In this document: positions 4,329 through 52,053 of the stretch, one piece after another
Numbering within the stretch: position 1 is the stretch's first letter
Layout of the letters: every line of letters starts with the position of its first letter
NCBI RefSeq assembly: GCF_016065055.1
Contig: NZ_CP065856.1
Span: 2,169,836-2,233,835 of the forward strand
From: Halosimplex litoreum
Lineage (GTDB): Archaea; Halobacteriota; Halobacteria; Halobacteriales; Haloarculaceae
Direction of reading: 5' to 3'
DNA length: 64,000 nucleotides
Position numbers and translations under genes: made by a program
Notes under the pieces: generated by a model
Databases searched by the model: none
What the model saw: the letters and a program-made list of their open reading frames with translations, nothing else
What the model was told of the DNA's origin: nothing

Positions 4329-4504
4329 ACACGGTGTCGGTCGCTCCGTGGTAAGTGCTTTTCCCAGACAGTTCGACGTCGGTCAGTTCCGTGCGAGTCG
4401 AACGGGTGTCTCCGTAAGCTATCTCGTGAAATGAAGCCGAGTGGGCGTGGCCGCAGCCGACAGCAGGCGACGAAAACCCTCGCCGCGTTCGATCGCAACT
4501 GCTT

Positions 4505-4950
4505 CAACCGCAGGAGACAGCGAGCGCTGAAAGCCCTCGACCCGCTCGCTACGAGTTGGAACGACCGCACTCGACGGAGACAGCGAGCGCTGAAAGCCCT
4601 CGACCCGCTCGCTACGAGTTGGAACGACCGCACTCGACGGCGACAGCGAGCGCTGAAAGCCCTCGACCCGCTCGCGGTCGCTGAGCGACATATCCTCGCG
4701 GCCGGAGGCCGCTTCGGATAGGGGTCGCTCAGGCGACTAAACTGGACGCGAGCGCGTCTCGCCCGTTCAGTCCACCAGGACAGCACGGCACCGTGACCAC
4801 ACCGTCCCGCACAGCACCGCAGACGGCCTCGAACCTCCCCAGCCTCTTGCGATGCTCGCAAGCTGCGCTTCTCATCCCTCGCACGGTATTGGTCGCGCGC
4901 ACGAGAGCGCGCGACAGCGCGCGCCACCGCACCGCAACCGCCTACTCGCT
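4505..4950 (+). repeat. Dispersed modular repeat element, copy A
   Basis: Parts in order: a 63-bp tandem block; a hairpin in which CTGAGCGAC (4681-4689) pairs with GTCGCTCAG (4724-4732) and TATCC (4691-4695) with GGATA (4716-4720); the block TTCAGTCCACCA (4766-4777); a small TTGCGA/TCGCAA hairpin; the block CTCATCCCTCGC; and a 9-bp stem GTCGCGCGC/GCGCGCGAC (4892-4900 with 4907-4915) closing the loop ACGAGA. The same parts in the same order and orientation occur near 12.5 and 50.5 kb. No protein is encoded. It could be a structured RNA, a non-autonomous mobile element or a bound DNA site. Confidence 0.8.
4513..4677 (+). repeat. 63-bp tandem repeats (copy A), about 2.6 units
   Basis: Units start at 4513, 4576 and 4639, exactly 63 bases apart. 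Each contains GCTGAAAGCCCTCGACCCGC and GACCGCACTCGACGG around a 12-base centre (ACGAGTTGGAAC). The last unit runs into the hairpin part of the element. The two complete units are almost identical, so the duplication is recent or kept uniform. Confidence 0.9.
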
Positions 4951-11644: not shown

Positions 11645-11746
11645 GTCCGTGTCTGTGCCCCTCCCGCGAAAGTAGGTGTCGGTTCGCACCGCGCCGGTCG
11701 ACGCTGAAACGCGGGGGTTATGCCCCTCGCCCGCGTGGATCCGCCG

Positions 11747-12466
11747 ATGACAGCAGGGCTCGACGCGGACGTGGTCGGCGCCGACGCGGCCGCCGACCGC
11801 CGGGACGAACTTGTCGCCGAAGTCACCGACCACGCCGGCCGGATCGCGCGCGAACTCGCCCGACTCCAGGGCGGCGACTACGGCAGCCGCGAGTTCGACA
11901 CCGACCGCGCCACCTGGACGCTCAAGTACGAGGGCGGCGACGTCGACTACCTCCGCTTCGACGGCCGCGGCGACGACGTCTACGTCGTCTCCACCAAGCA
12001 ACCCCCCGACCCCGAAGACCTCGCGCGAGCGATGGCCGACTACGACGCCTTCGTCGACGCCTTCAACGACTACGTCCGCTCGCTCGACGGCGTCCTCGAC
12101 GACACCGCCACGGAGTTGCCCGCAATCGAGTCCGTCGACTCCGTGGTGGAAGCGCGCGAGCGCATCCTCTCGCGGATGCGCGAGACCTGCGACCTGATGG
12201 CCGAGCAGCTCGACCGCGTCGAGGGCAACGACTACGGGACGTTCGCCGCCCGTGTCGGGAGTTCCCGCTGGGAACTCAAGTGGGAGGAAAATCGTGCCAG
12301 CTACCTCCGCGTCGGCGGCGAAGGCGGCGTGTATCTCCTCTCGCAGTACCAGCCGCCCGCCCCGAAGGACCTGCGCGCCCACGCCGACGACTTTCCGGGG
12401 TTCGTCGACGCCTTCAACGAGCACGTCTCCGAGATCTCCGAGAGTCTGGACACCGTCGAGTTGTAG
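11747..12466 (+). CDS. Conserved haloarchaeal protein with an internal duplication
   Basis: 239 acidic residues made of two copies of one domain, about 45-125 and 155-238. Paired motifs: GGDYGSREF and [19 protein letters not shown] and [18 protein letters not shown] and [23 protein letters not shown] and [28 protein letters not shown] and [13 protein letters not shown]. Each copy looks like a small beta sheet followed by helices. No signal peptide or membrane segment is present. ATG at 11747 is preferred because GGGGTTATGCCCC lies at leaderless distance; an earlier in-frame ATG at 11720 would put that box inside the gene. I do not recognise a named family. Confidence 0.75.
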
Positions 12467-12528
12467 TTCGAGGTGTCTGTTTTGTCTCGTTTTCCGCCCG
12501 CTCGTTCTGAGTAACCACGACCACAGCA

Positions 12529-12750
12529 GACAGCACGCGTTGAACGCCCTCGACCCGCTCGCTAGCAGTCGACTCGACCGCACTCGATGGAGACCGCACG
12601 CGTTGAAAGCCCTCGGCCCGCTCGCTAGCAGTCGACTCGACCGCACTCGACGGCGACAGCACGCGATGAAAGCCCTCGACCCGCTCGCTAGCAGTCGACT
12701 CGACCGCACTCGATGGAGACCGCACGCGTTGAAAGCCCTCGGCCCGCTCG
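12529..12750 (+). repeat. 63-bp tandem repeats (copy B), about 3.5 units
   Basis: Units start at 12529, 12592, 12655 and 12718, exactly 63 bases apart. Units 1 and 3 resemble each other (GACAGCACGCG) and so do units 2 and 4 (GACCGCACGCG), so a two-unit block of 126 bases was duplicated. The 12-base centre differs from copy A (AGCAGTCGACTC here). Confidence 0.9.
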
Positions 12751-13090
12751 CGGTCGCTGAGCGGGATATCCGCGCTCTCCGCACCGCCCGCGCGGATAGT
12801 GCCCGCTCAACCGACCACGCAAGCGCGAGCGGGCGGTCGGCTCCGCCGACCGCCACAGTCCGTGGCGGCTACGCCGCCACGCGCGCCTCGCCCTTTCAGT
12901 CCACCAGGACAGCACCGCGACTGCCCCGCACAGCACCGCAAACGGCCACATACCTCCCCAGCCGATTGCGCTTCTCGCAAGCTGCGATGCTCATCCCTCG
13001 CGCGATTTCGTCGCGCGCACGAGAGCGCGCCAGCGTCAGAGCAATCTCTGACGGCCCATCGGAATCGCTTGCGATTCCGAGACGACAGCA
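12529..13090 (+). repeat. Dispersed modular repeat element, copy B
   Basis: It has the same order of parts as copy A. The first hairpin pairs TGAGCGGG (12758-12765) with CCCGCTCA (12802-12809) and TATCCGCG (12767-12774) with CGCGGATA (12791-12798). TTCAGTCCACCA is at 12895-12906. The third hairpin is GCGCGC-ACGAGA-GCGCGC (13013-13030). Copy B also carries extra perfect hairpins absent from the others: GTGGCGGC/GCCGCCAC near 12873, GTCAGAG/CTCTGAC (13035-13052) and GGAATCGC/GCGATTCC (13061-13078). Confidence 0.8.
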
Positions 13091-31123: not shown

Positions 31124-31510
31124 GGGGTGAAGACGAGGCTTCTATCAGCAGACATCGACTACAGCCACAGCGACCGCACGACAGCTATCACAGTGACAGC
31201 GACCGCAAACAGCGTGAAAGCCCCGACGCGTTCGGGAAGCCCGCCGCCGCAAGCACCACAGCGAGCGAAGCGAGCGAGGAGCGCAGCAAGGCGCGCGACC
31301 GAAGCAGGTCGGGGCTTTCACGCTGTCTCGCATTCCGATCGAGCCGTCGGTACTGTCGGCTGGCGCGGTAGCGCTCACTCCATTTGCGGTCGCGGTCTCA
31401 CGTTCGGGACTCGTCGCGTCACTCGCTCGACCGAGCGCATCGAGTGACGAAACGACCGCTCCTGATCGCGGGACACCGAACTTATGACGACGGGCGCGAC
31501 ACCACCAGAC
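31124..31510. other. Intergenic region with a large inverted repeat
   Basis: 387 bases between a kinase stop and a peptidase start. Besides the inverted repeat at 31209-31326 it contains AGCGAGCGAAGCGAGCGAGG runs and, near 31479, the TATA-like box of the next gene. No credible protein was found. Confidence 0.75.
31209..31326. repeat. 19-bp perfect inverted repeat sharing a motif with the modular element
   Basis: ACAGCGTGAAAGCCCCGAC (31209-31227) is perfectly complementary to the sequence at 31308-31326; 80 bases lie between. The arm contains GTGAAAGCCCC, close to the TGAAAGCCCTCG of the 63-bp tandem unit elsewhere in the window, and is preceded by the GACCGCA seen there too. It could be a terminator stem, a miniature mobile element or a relic of the same repeat family. 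Confidence 0.75.
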
Positions 31511-48739: not shown

Positions 48740-48848
48740 GCGGGCCGGCGGCTCCGCGGCCGACGGGCACCGGACGACCGGTCGGCCGTCAGACGATCGG
48801 ACGGCCGTCGGACCACCACTTTTGTAGCACGGCGAGGTAGTGCCGTCC

Positions 48849-50369
48849 ATGCGAGGCCCGCTCGGCGACCGGATCTACGCGGCGGCCGCGAGGCTCCGGC
48901 GACTCGAACGCCGGGAGGCGCGGGCCTTCCGACGCTGGGTCGAGCGGACGAGCAACCTCGTCCACCTGTCGATCCTCGCGCTCGTCCCGCTGTTGATCGC
49001 CGTGGTGACGCTTCTGTTCAACAGCATCGACCAGCTCTCCTTTCTGCTCTTCCCGCCGCTGGCCTCGGGCACCTACACGCTGTTCGCGAACCCGGAGGGG
49101 AAGTACGCCTCTCCGACGCGGTTCGTCGCGGGGCTCACGGTCGGATCGCTGTGTGGCTGGGCTGCGCTCGTGCTGTCGTCTGCACTCGGTGTGGGTGGGA
49201 CCGCCGCGGGTGCGGCGGGCGGACAGCTGACCGTCGGCGCCTTCGCGGCCGCGGTCGCCGTCTTCCTCGCCGGGGCGAGCACGTGGGCGCTCGATATCGA
49301 GGCCCCGTCGGCCTACTCGACGGCGCTGCTGGGCCTGCTCGTTCGGCCCGGCCACGAGCTGGTGTTCACCCTGTCGGTTCTGGTGGCGAGTAGCGTCGTC
49401 GCGTCGGTGTTCGTCGTCTGGCGCGAACAGTTCTACGACCGGCGCGCGCAGTTCCTCTACGAGTCGACCGGCAGCGACGACCACGTCCTCGTCCCGATGC
49501 GCGGGGACGACCCCGACGCCACGGCGATGTTCGGCGCTCGGCTGGCCGCCGCCCACGACGCCGGGAAGGTCGTCCTGCTAGACGTCGTCGACGACGAGGC
49601 CGCCGCCAGCGCCGAGCGGGACCTGCTCGACGACCGGCGGCGGGCCGACCGTTCGCACTCCGGCGGAGACGGCGGGGACGACCGCTTCGAGTCGTCCGAC
49701 GACCGGGACGAGACCCCGCCCGCGGACCGCGCCGAGGAGCGGGCGGTCGCCGAAGCGGCGACGCATCTCGAAGACCGGGCGAGCGAGATCGAGACGCGGG
49801 TCGGGGTGCCCTGCGAGGTGGTCGTCGCCGTCGGCGGTCGCTCGCCGGCGGCCACCGTCCTGAAGACGGCCCACGAGACCAACTGCGACCTGGTCGCCGC
49901 GGCCTACGAACAGCGCCACGGCGCGCTCACCCCCTACCTCTACGACCTCTTCCGCGGGGACACCGACGTGGTCGTCCACCGCTCGGCGGCCGGTCGCACC
50001 CGCTGGAAGCGCGTACTGGTGCCGGTCCGCCGGGCCAGCGACGTGGCCCACAGCATGCTCGACTTCGCGCGCCGACTCGCCGGCCGATCCGGCCGGATCA
50101 GCGTCTGTTCCTGCGTCTCGAACGAACACGAGCGCCGACGCGCCGAGGGGATGCTCGCCGACCTGGTCGAGCCCTTCGAGGGCGGCTTCGAGACCCGCGT
50201 CGCCGTCGAGACCATCGAGCGCTACCTCGCCGACAACGCCGACGACTTCGACCTCCTCTTTATGGGCGCCAGCACCGACCGCTCGGCCGCCTCGCGACTG
50301 ATCTCGCCGCCGACGTTCGAACGCATCCAGGATCTGGACGCCGACGTGGTCATCGTCGACCGGTCGTAA
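48849..50369 (+). CDS. HPP membrane domain fused to universal stress protein domains
   Basis: 506 residues. The N-terminal half (about 40-195) has five membrane helices of the HPP type (SFLLFPPLASGTYTLFANPE and SPTRFVAGLTVGSLCGW). The C-terminal half has two USP-like domains (about 210-365 and 375-506: DHVLVPMRGDDPDATAMFGA, KRVLVPVRRASDVAHSMLDF, LLFMGASTDRSAASRLISPP) with an acidic insertion (DRRRADRSHSGGDGGDDRFE). ATG 48849 follows CACTTTTGTA at leaderless distance. The HPP domain has been linked to nitrite transport in plants; the role here is unknown. Confidence 0.85.
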   Translation: MRGPLGDRIYAAAARLRRLERREARAFRRWVERTSNLVHLSILALVPLLIAVVTLLFNSIDQLSFLLFPPLASGTYTLFANPEGKYASPTRFVAGLTVGSLCGWAALVLSSALGVGGTAAGAAGGQLTVGAFAAAVAVFLAGASTWALDIEAPSAYSTALLGLLVRPGHELVFTLSVLVASSVVASVFVVWREQFYDRRAQFLYESTGSDDHVLVPMRGDDPDATAMFGARLAAAHDAGKVVLLDVVDDEAAASAERDLLDDRRRADRSHSGGDGGDDRFESSDDRDETPPADRAEERAVAEAATHLEDRASEIETRVGVPCEVVVAVGGRSPAATVLKTAHETNCDLVAAAYEQRHGALTPYLYDLFRGDTDVVVHRSAAGRTRWKRVLVPVRRASDVAHSMLDFARRLAGRSGRISVCSCVSNEHERRRAEGMLADLVEPFEGGFETRVAVETIERYLADNADDFDLLFMGASTDRSAASRLISPPTFERIQDLDADVVIVDRS

Positions 50370-50853
50370 GAGATCGAGCGTGTTCGGTTCGTGTTGTGAG
50401 TTGAGTGAGAGTTGCAACAGATTATATCGTGAAATAAATGCAAAGGATCGCGACCGCAGGAGACAGTTCATCACCCGCTGTCTCCTCAGATGATGAAAGC
50501 CCTCGGCGCGCTCGCGGTCGCTGAGCGACATATCCTCGCTCGCTGTGCTCGCTCGGATAGGGGTCGCTCAGACGACTAGATGAACGCGAGCGCGTCTCGC
50601 CCGTTCAGTCCACCATGGCCGCACGGCACCGCAGACAGCCACGACCCTCCCCAACCGATTCGCTCGCTTCGCTCGCTCATCCCTCGCACGCTCTGTCGCG
50701 AGACGAGACTCGCGACAGCGCGCGCCGACCGCACTGTAATCGCTCACTCCATCACCTGTACTGACCGTTCCATCGAGCGAAGCGGACGAGTCCCGATGGG
50801 GGTCCGGATCGACGATGCCCCCGGTTTCCACTCGTGGGGTCGTCCGACCCGGC
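50370..50853. other. Intergenic region holding repeat element copy C
   Basis: 484 bases between two converging genes. Left of the repeat is an AT-rich stretch (ATTATATCGTGAAATAAATG near 50421), promoter-like in a GC-rich genome; a similar TCGTGAAAT precedes copy A. Confidence 0.75.
50451..50750 (+). repeat. Dispersed modular repeat element, copy C
   Basis: The shortest copy, without the 63-bp tandem block. It starts with GACCGCAGGAGACAG, where AGGAGACAG (50458-50466) pairs with CTGTCTCCT (50478-50486). Then come TGAAAGCCCTCG, the first hairpin (CTGAGCGAC 50521-50529 with GTCGCTCAG 50563-50571; TATCC with GGATA), TTCAGTCCACCA (50604-50615), CTCATCCCTCGC, and the third hairpin CTGTCGCGAG-ACGAGA-CTCGCGACAG (50693-50718). 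Confidence 0.8.
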
Positions 50854-52053
50854 TCAGTCGCTGGTCACGTCGTCCTCGTCCTCGGCGTCGAGCAGTCGGT
50901 CGGCCAGTCCCTCCATGTCGCCGCTGCCCAGCGCGGACTCGACGAGGAGGTGGCCGCCGATGACGGCGGGGCTGATGACGGCGTCGGCGCCGGCGCGGCG
51001 GAGCTTCTCGACGTTCTCGCGGTCGGTCGCGGCGGCGACGACGCGGGCGTCGGGGTGGAACTGGCGGGCGGTGAGGATCGCCAGCGCGTCCTGGGCGTCG
51101 TCGTTGGTGGCGGCGATGACGGCGCGGGCGTGTTCGATCCCGGCCTGTTTCTGGGGCTCCTCGTCGCTGGGGTCGCCGACGACGACGTGGAGGTCGCGGG
51201 CCCGTAGCGTGGCCGCCAGGTCCGGGTCGGGGGTTATCACGACGAAGTCGGCGGCGGTCGAGAGCTCTTCGAGCAGCGGTTCGGTCAGGTCGCCGTAGCC
51301 CAGGACGACGACGTGGTCGTCCAGGAGTTCCAGGTCGGAGTCGTTCATGGTACCGAGTGCTTGTGAGAGTCGCGCCTCGATGGCGGGGCCGAGCAGCGAC
51401 CCCAGCGCGACGGTGAAGCTGGCGACACCGAGCACGAGCACGCTCGTCCCGAACAGCTTGGCCTGCTGGCTCGCGGGTGTCACGTCGCCGTAGCCGACGG
51501 TGCTGGCGGTGACGATGGTGTAGTAGAAGGCGTCGGTCAGCGTGTCGAGGTTGTTGAACTCCTCGCGGAGCTGGTAGGCGCCGACGGTGCCGTAGACGAG
51601 CGTTCCCGACAGCGCCGCGGCCGCGGCGAGCTGGGTCGTCGAGAGGTCGGCCTGTCGGTCGAACCGTCGGTAGTTCACCAGCACCGTCGGCAGCGACAGC
51701 AGCGACAGGGCGACCATCGGCAGCGAGTACTGGCTCGACTGTGCCAGCCCCTGGACGGCCGTCACCGGCAGGAGCACGACCGTCGAGAACCACGCCGCGC
51801 GCAGCCGCCGTCGCATCCCCCAGGCGCTCAACAGCATCAGAAAGCCCGTCAGCGCGCCGGTAAAGCCCGCCGCCCGCTGTATCTCGGGGGGGATGTCGAC
51901 GTAGGTGAGCAGGATCCCGCCCACCTGCATGTCGCTGATGTTCGCGACCCCGGTGGCAAAGGAGAGGATGGCGACGACGGTCGGCAGCCAGATGGCTGCT
52001 CGCGTCCCGACGAACACCGTCCGCGGATGCTGTAACACCCGCTTCGCGTCCAT
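50854..52053 (-). CDS. Potassium channel with RCK (TrkA-N) domain
   Basis: 399 residues. Four N-terminal membrane segments (about 18-130) precede the pore module (about 140-225), whose selectivity filter is TASTVGYGDVTPAS. The cytosolic RCK domain starts DDHVVVLGYGDLTEPLLEEL (about 245), with VVGDPSDEEPQKQAGIEHAR and AVIAATNDDAQDALAILTAR as nucleotide-fold motifs. GYGDLTEP replaces the usual GxGxxG, so ligand binding may be changed. It would let K+ pass the cell membrane, important for an organism that accumulates K+. The two RCK_C membrane proteins are transcribed away from it. Confidence 0.92.
   Translation of the reverse strand: MDAKRVLQHPRTVFVGTRAAIWLPTVVAILSFATGVANISDMQVGGILLTYVDIPPEIQRAAGFTGALTGFLMLLSAWGMRRRLRAAWFSTVVLLPVTAVQGLAQSSQYSLPMVALSLLSLPTVLVNYRRFDRQADLSTTQLAAAAALSGTLVYGTVGAYQLREEFNNLDTLTDAFYYTIVTASTVGYGDVTPASQQAKLFGTSVLVLGVASFTVALGSLLGPAIEARLSQALGTMNDSDLELLDDHVVVLGYGDLTEPLLEELSTAADFVVITPDPDLAATLRARDLHVVVGDPSDEEPQKQAGIEHARAVIAATNDDAQDALAILTARQFHPDARVVAAATDRENVEKLRRAGADAVISPAVIGGHLLVESALGSGDMEGLADRLLDAEDEDDVTSD

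Follow-up and report, generated by a model that had tools for sequence, protein, structure and literature searches.

The 64-kb window, that is, the whole stretch of Halosimplex litoreum DNA analysed here, carries three minus-strand copies (A, B and C) and one plus-strand copy (D) of a modular intergenic element. Copies A, B and C had been described in the original prediction as a succession of parts in fixed order; all of these parts are found, in the order given, and repeat and tandem-repeat searches recover the same three copies. A covariance model (R2), whose training set did not contain copy B, assigns 119.5, 77.8 and 136.6 bits to copies A, B and C, and at most 21.6 bits to the remainder of the 64 kb. 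The strand originally chosen for the fold is the wrong one, as all three copies fold on the minus strand of the window (on the plus strand copy C reaches 21.6 bits). The three were rightly said to share an orientation; this does not extend to the window at large, where the plus-strand copy D had been overlooked. Copy C, first placed at 50451–50750, is longer than that and occupies 50381–50771. The elements, about 200 to 600 bp in length, contain no plausible reading frame, in agreement with the initial view that no protein is encoded. Frames spanning the repeats are mechanical and differ from copy to copy, on which ground a reading as host coding sequence or truncated genes was rejected. The features are as follows.

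4420–4950, minus strand: copy A, long form with type B core (R2, 119.5 bits); ends approximate, right end degraded
4513–4675, minus strand: tandem 63-bp units of copy A (period 63, 2.6 copies, 99% match) that repeat the 3' strand of helix P1, TCGAGGGCTTTCA on the minus strand
4655–4777, minus strand: core of copy A, with TGGTGGACTGAACGGGCGAG, P1, P2 with an inner CCTATCC/GGATATG stem, and CGAGGGCTTTC (R2 and alignment)
4841–4882, minus strand: hairpin P3 of copy A, flanked by GCGAGGGATGAG and GGCTGGGGAGG; the hairpin is kept and its sequence differs among copies
4891–4925, minus strand: hairpin P4 of copy A, the ACGAGA-loop hairpin of the original prediction
11720–12466, plus strand: gene flanking copy B, converging with the next gene
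12528–13085, minus strand: copy B, long form with type B core; one additional palindrome pair within the core and one next to P4
12528–12751, minus strand: tandem 63-bp units of copy B, 3.6 copies (tandem-repeat search)
12731–12906, minus strand: core of copy B with the twin-hairpin insert GGCGGTCGGC..GCCGACCGCC plus GTGGCGGC..GCCGCCAC (77.8 bits over 12731–12855)
13116, minus strand: gene flanking copy B
31207–31321, plus strand: copy D, with a type A core framed by GTGAAAGCCCCGAC..GTCGGGGCTTTCAC (69.6 bits over 31207–31319, E = 1.3e-13)
48840–50369, plus strand: gene flanking copy C, converging with the gene at 50854
50373–50380: left 8-bp target-site duplication of copy C, ATCGAGCG, perfect
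50381–50771, minus strand: copy C, full length, between the target duplications
50495–50615, minus strand: core of copy C, type B (136.6 bits, E = 7.7e-28)
50772–50779: right 8-bp target-site duplication of copy C, ATCGAGCG, perfect
50854–52053, minus strand: gene flanking copy C

The placement between converging genes noted earlier is correct for copies B and C, but a general tie is not supported, orientation appearing random over 41 copies. None of the 41 lies inside a called gene, and their neighbours are convergent in 11 cases, divergent in 10 and tandem in 20 (ten per orientation), with single assignments approximate, as the gene caller is crude, an earlier and cruder one gave 12, 9 and 20, and both miscall the gene to the left of copy B. 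Nothing in these figures points to a regulatory or terminator function linked to the adjoining gene, and the random orientation of neighbours led to the rejection of a terminator or 3'-UTR element.

Architecture of the element

Written on the folded strand, the long form of about 400 nt consists of P4, GCGAGGGAYGAG, P3, GGCTGGGGAGG, a G-rich spacer, CC-TGGYGGACTGAAMGGGCGAG, P1, the inner domain and CGAGGGCKTTC. Its core, about 115 nt in length, is formed by the outer helix P1 enclosing one of two alternative hairpin domains: in type A cores, GACGCAAGCAC, a hairpin and GGAGCGCAGCGAG; in type B cores, the helix P2, GGGCNCTATCC ... GGATATCCC. P1 includes a symmetric stretch of G.G, C-G and G.A/A.G pairs (GGGCGAG against CGAGGGC). 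Depending on the locus, one to about seven units of the P1 3' strand follow one another, spaced 57 or 63 bp apart, and units of 63 bp stand at the start of copies A and B. These tandem units are near-identical throughout and lack distinct spacers, which excludes a CRISPR array. Units of a similar kind, about 60 nt long, are seen by eye in Halorubrum-like copies, which come from another family and have another frame, GGGACTCAAAGGGGC ... GGGGCTTTGG. The 5' domain, GCGAGGGAYG-hairpin-GGCTGGGGAGG followed by the core, is common to Halosimplex and Halorubrum-like genomes. In the terminal hairpins, brief stretches of Watson-Crick pairing take turns with tandem G.A pairs, and C-GNA-G loops close them; the unpaired parts of the core are the same in all genera.

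Type A cores are frequently paired. Ten head-to-head pairs make up 20 of the 31 type A copies in the genome of the window; all diverge, with a gap of 27–30 bp (for example 1017399/1017540, 1041594/1041731, 2437662/2437806 and 1939843/1939987). Such twins are also present at loci L313 and L316–L320, and gaps of 23–30 bp are seen in other genera. The twin-hairpin insert of copy B (GGCGGTCGGC..GCCGACCGCC beside GTGGCGGC..GCCGCCAC, at 12836–12886) recurs at L022, L040, L128, L141, L166 and L221. It occupies an identical position in helix P1 across several genera and resembles a very small mobile palindrome with hairpins as its targets.

Distribution and mobility

The genome of the window (Halosimplex, 4.16 Mb) contains about 93 copies detected by covariance search: 62 of type B, the kind first described, and 31 of type A. 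The motif GCCCKTTCAGTCCRCCA occurs 40 times in this genome (21 forward, 19 reverse), and each of the other genomes of the genus has 4 to 44 occurrences; at that stringency it is almost never encountered in the nearest other genera. A covariance model of type A, built from relatives and scoring at most about 15 copies per genome, gives matches at E ≤ 1e-5 in 203 of 242 haloarchaeal genomes, which represent 63 of 73 genera. Further copies in relatives are abundant, and the belief in the original prediction that such sequences are widespread in haloarchaea is borne out. Among the named relatives are Halorussus, Halonotius, Halovenus, Haloparvum, Natronomonas, Haladaptatus, Halomicrococcus, Halomarina, Halapricum and Halopiger. 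A phylum-wide draw produced 28 matches, all of them in haloarchaea (28 of 33), and none in 164 non-haloarchaeal genomes. The motif has no match among the viral contigs of IMG/VR, and a viral origin was discarded on that account.

In Halonotius, Halovenus and Halorussus the element takes a short form of about 200 bp, with GGNNSTGTTCAGATAAG as inverted repeats at its ends. Identical ends delimit a 687-bp IS that is multicopy in Halovenus and Halonotius genomes and has at least six full-length copies in the Halovenus salina genome with elements, where L216 and L224 share TGTTCAGATAAG ends with it. The IS encodes a 211-aa protein identified as an IS6 transposase (NF033587, E = 4.7e-57; Pfam PF13610 falls just below the cut-off). 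An IS in Halosimplex genome G006 carries GGTGTTCAGATAAG ends. In the genome of the window this IS6 subgroup is represented by two small remnants only; present-day mobility of the copies there is therefore doubtful, and they may no longer move.

Perfect 8-bp target duplications border 7 of 18 elements, against 0.22 expected from shuffled flanks, and two further ones, at L286 and L289, were recognised by eye. Inverted repeats are weak in Halosimplex, where 2 of 16 copies, L017 and copy C of the window, have a perfect duplication at the expected place, the only place at which duplications were counted, as a search of the genus free of position limits came near chance (4 perfect against 1.23). Near-identical pairs with sharp ends stand at unrelated sites (L011/L042, 96.8%; L015/L034, 92.7%; L017/L046, 92.5%). 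As judged from individually compared loci, some orthologous sites are occupied in both Halosimplex species (L037/L158, L027/L077, L018/L156) and others in one only: L036 is absent in H. carlsbadense, L021 is absent in genome G007, and a copy of H. pelagicum is absent here. In Halosimplex, sites that lack the element are not empty to the exact base. Where orthologous sites are occupied, whole hairpins have been swapped with the fold kept. At L018/L156, one locus in two Halosimplex species, about seven tandem units are found against one, and the P2 stem differs and still pairs, a case of fast replacement with the fold retained.

Both target-site duplications and sites empty in relatives, the two signs of transposition that the original prediction had suggested looking for, are thus present. 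Together with the IS6-type inverted repeats and the dispersed near-identical copies, they identify the family as a non-autonomous transposable element, one of the two possibilities initially raised. In many copies of other genera recognisable inverted repeats have been lost and the core is intact; retention of the core under such loss is something a pure transposon does not account for.

A second repeat family, with about 44 copies genome-wide (for example L175–L204, L168 and L171), is composed of a hairpin, CGCGGTTCACCG, a hairpin, TTTTTCACCCATGTTTTT, a long hairpin and AAAAAGATGG, and resembles a compound terminator. It adjoins the main element at L015, L020, L023, L025, L034 and L041. More than half of the second-family copies read abut the CACCTGTACTGAGC end of the main element, of which sometimes only that end remains.

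Structural selection on one strand

Cores from several genera were aligned, 29 of type A and 30 of type B. The resulting consensus folds display compensatory change, with both sides altered and pairing kept, in 24 of 35 and 21 of 33 pairs, respectively. Watson-Crick pairs in P1 greatly exceed the shuffled expectation (for example at pair 3, 127 against 62 of 153, and at pair 10, 124 against 60), and the GAAMG/CKTTC segment covaries from A/C to T/G, with 151 A-T, 19 C-G and 20 mismatched combinations. Changes in P2 are compensatory among copies within one genome, the stem appearing as GGG/CCC, GAC/GTC, CGG/CCG, CTGT/ACAG or ACGC/GCGT. This massive compensatory variation establishes the structured nature that the original prediction had offered as an alternative to mobility; structured and mobile are both true of one object.

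Departures from Watson-Crick pairing are strand-specific. In correctly registered copies the residual non-Watson-Crick cells of P2 are mostly A.C on the pyrimidine-rich strand originally read, which corresponds to G.U on the opposite strand. On that opposite strand, P1 of other genera has 49 G.T against 11 A.C (p = 8e-7). Among 190 distinct cores, tandem GA/GA occurs 133 times and TC/TC not once, and GNA triloops outnumber TNC triloops by 108 to 12. The wobbles, the tandem G.A pairs and the loop type together place the folded strand of copies A, B and C on the minus strand of the window. Folding energies confirm that the region folds well; they are only moderately better than those of shuffled sequences (z about −2 to −4) and discriminate between strands weakly, in some cases unclearly; the core of copy A scores −4.05 on the minus strand against −2.79 on the plus. 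The core is under structural selection, with the fold kept by compensatory changes and always on one strand.

Other palindromes in the genome of the window also favour GNA/TNC triloops (about 101 of 186) and tandem G.A interruptions, a general hairpin grammar of the organism noted in the window and at L011–L046.

The folded molecule and known systems

Probably the copies are members of a haloarchaea-wide non-autonomous transposable family, MITE-like and with BOX-like modularity, which is moved by IS6 and whose core folds as a single strand. An IS6-family transposase acting in trans would copy the element to new sites, and one strand would fold while single-stranded, the fold being needed for keeping or spreading the element. 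Against this explanation stand the abundance of GNA loops and tandem G.A pairs in other palindromes of the genome, the mere remnants of the IS6 subgroup in the genome of the window, the weak inverted repeats, few target duplications and inexact empty sites of Halosimplex, the loss of inverted repeats around intact cores in other genera, and the moderate, weakly strand-specific folding energies. It is also conceivable, although we would hold it only tentatively, that the core is a haloarchaea-wide and hitherto undescribed structured nucleic acid that has its own function, be it as RNA or as folded single-stranded DNA, and that spreads by means of borrowed IS6 ends.

Transient single-stranded DNA appears a somewhat better candidate for the folding molecule than a transcript. 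GNA triloops closed by G-C pairs are extraordinarily stable as DNA mini-hairpins (PMC4686876), and the C-GNA-G loops of the element are of this exceptionally stable kind, within a hairpin grammar that includes tandem G.A pairs. The main rival, a serious one, holds that the folded strand is transcribed into a non-coding RNA acting in trans or binding a protein, with the IS6-type ends as its spreading vehicle; we regard it as possible, short of probable. Tandem G.A and G.U pairs suit RNA as well, and the long form resembles a large structured RNA in that its multi-domain architecture is common to Halosimplex and Halorubrum-like genomes. The strand-specific G.U wobble, the strong compensatory change, the presence of the family in 63 of 73 genera and the better preservation of the core than of the inverted repeats also speak for this reading. 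However, inspection by eye showed no common or conserved TATA-type promoter, either ahead of the 5' end or within it, orientation relative to adjoining genes is random, and the twins leave 27–30 bp between two 5' ends, too little for two promoters. GNA triloops, moreover, are a speciality of DNA and not of RNA, and no Rfam family corresponds to the element (Rfam 15 has no match above the gathering score across the window, and none to a clean element at E up to 1).

Compensatory change and strand asymmetry also bear on two readings in which the fold has no role, both of which we consider unlikely. The element could serve as a chromosome-architecture or DNA-binding site, recognised as a duplex by, for example, a nucleoid or SMC-type protein, with its structure incidental; its intergenic, orientation-free occurrence in about 93 copies per genome, the conserved 57- or 63-bp period of the tandem units and the fixed spacing of the twins would fit. 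Recognition of a duplex would conserve sequence, yet the helices change their sequence completely with pairing kept, and wobble and G.A pairs are tolerated on one strand only. Alternatively, the family could be a neutral MITE in which template switching during replication makes palindromes and keeps them perfect, with no selection on the fold. Palindromes with the same loops are common elsewhere in the genome, and hairpins are replaced wholesale between orthologous copies, as this would entail; template switching, however, yields perfect palindromes and is indifferent to strand, whereas tandem G.A pairs are distributed 133 to 0 and the unpaired core does not vary from genus to genus. An IS605-derived element of the PATE type, which a Y1 transposase would move in single-stranded form, is very improbable: haloarchaea do have many such palindromic, non-coding elements (PMC3119063), the folded-strand asymmetry would suit a single-stranded mechanism, and the genome of the window has ten TnpB-type genes, but PATEs lack the inverted repeats and target duplication that the present family has. 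An IS605/TnpB guide RNA was likewise rejected despite the ten TnpB genes, as ends and target duplications fit IS6.

Among the readings weighed, the IS6-moved element with a core folding as a single strand remains the preferred one, and the family itself is a real, class-wide, structured MITE family. MITEs are usually seen as passive passengers whose inner sequence is unimportant. In the present family, which has tens of dispersed copies per genome in most genera of an archaeal class, one definite fold is retained on one definite strand, and an intricate fold kept on one particular DNA strand is unexpected of ordinary mobile debris. The claim that follows can be tested: a short non-autonomous element would rely on a folded single strand, or supply one. 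The combination of tandem G.A pairs and GNA loops constitutes a strand test applicable to other palindromic repeats, and the covariance model could annotate hitherto unannotated intergenic sequence in hundreds of haloarchaeal genomes. No published description of the family was found in the open-access papers searched, and individual copies may have been named as MITEs already.

Integron attC sites, like other recombination substrates that fold as single strands, have one specific strand that folds and a structure conserved more than its sequence. The likeness to attC is one of principle only: the family has no integrase and no cassette arrays, and no common motif was found. With IS6 MITEs the family shares IS6-identical ends, an 8-bp duplication, lack of a transposase, a length of hundreds of bp and intergenic dispersal. 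The papers considered on haloarchaeal MITEs (PMC3119063, PMC10264941) do not ascribe a conserved internal fold to them, whereas the present core is conserved in most genera with compensatory changes. For Haloquadratum, MITEs, PATEs and SMRs have been described (PMC3119063); like PATEs and SMRs, the present elements are non-coding, palindromic and abundant, and their palindromes are targeted by smaller palindromic inserts. PATEs differ in being IS605-derived and free of inverted repeats and target duplications, neither of which applies here.

The closest analogues are pneumococcal BOX and other MITEs. BOX elements have the organisation boxA, n × boxB, boxC (PMC3049150), and the present family likewise has fixed outer modules and a side unit in variable number (57 or 63 bp, 1 to about 7 units). 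The two resemble each other in modular order, a variable-number tandem unit, IS-like ends, a predicted stable fold, intergenic location and dormant copies, a likeness judged on organisation only. They differ in that here the tandem unit repeats one strand of the outer helix. The present family, furthermore, is class-wide, whereas BOX belongs to one genus, and its folded strand is identifiable from non-Watson-Crick pairs.
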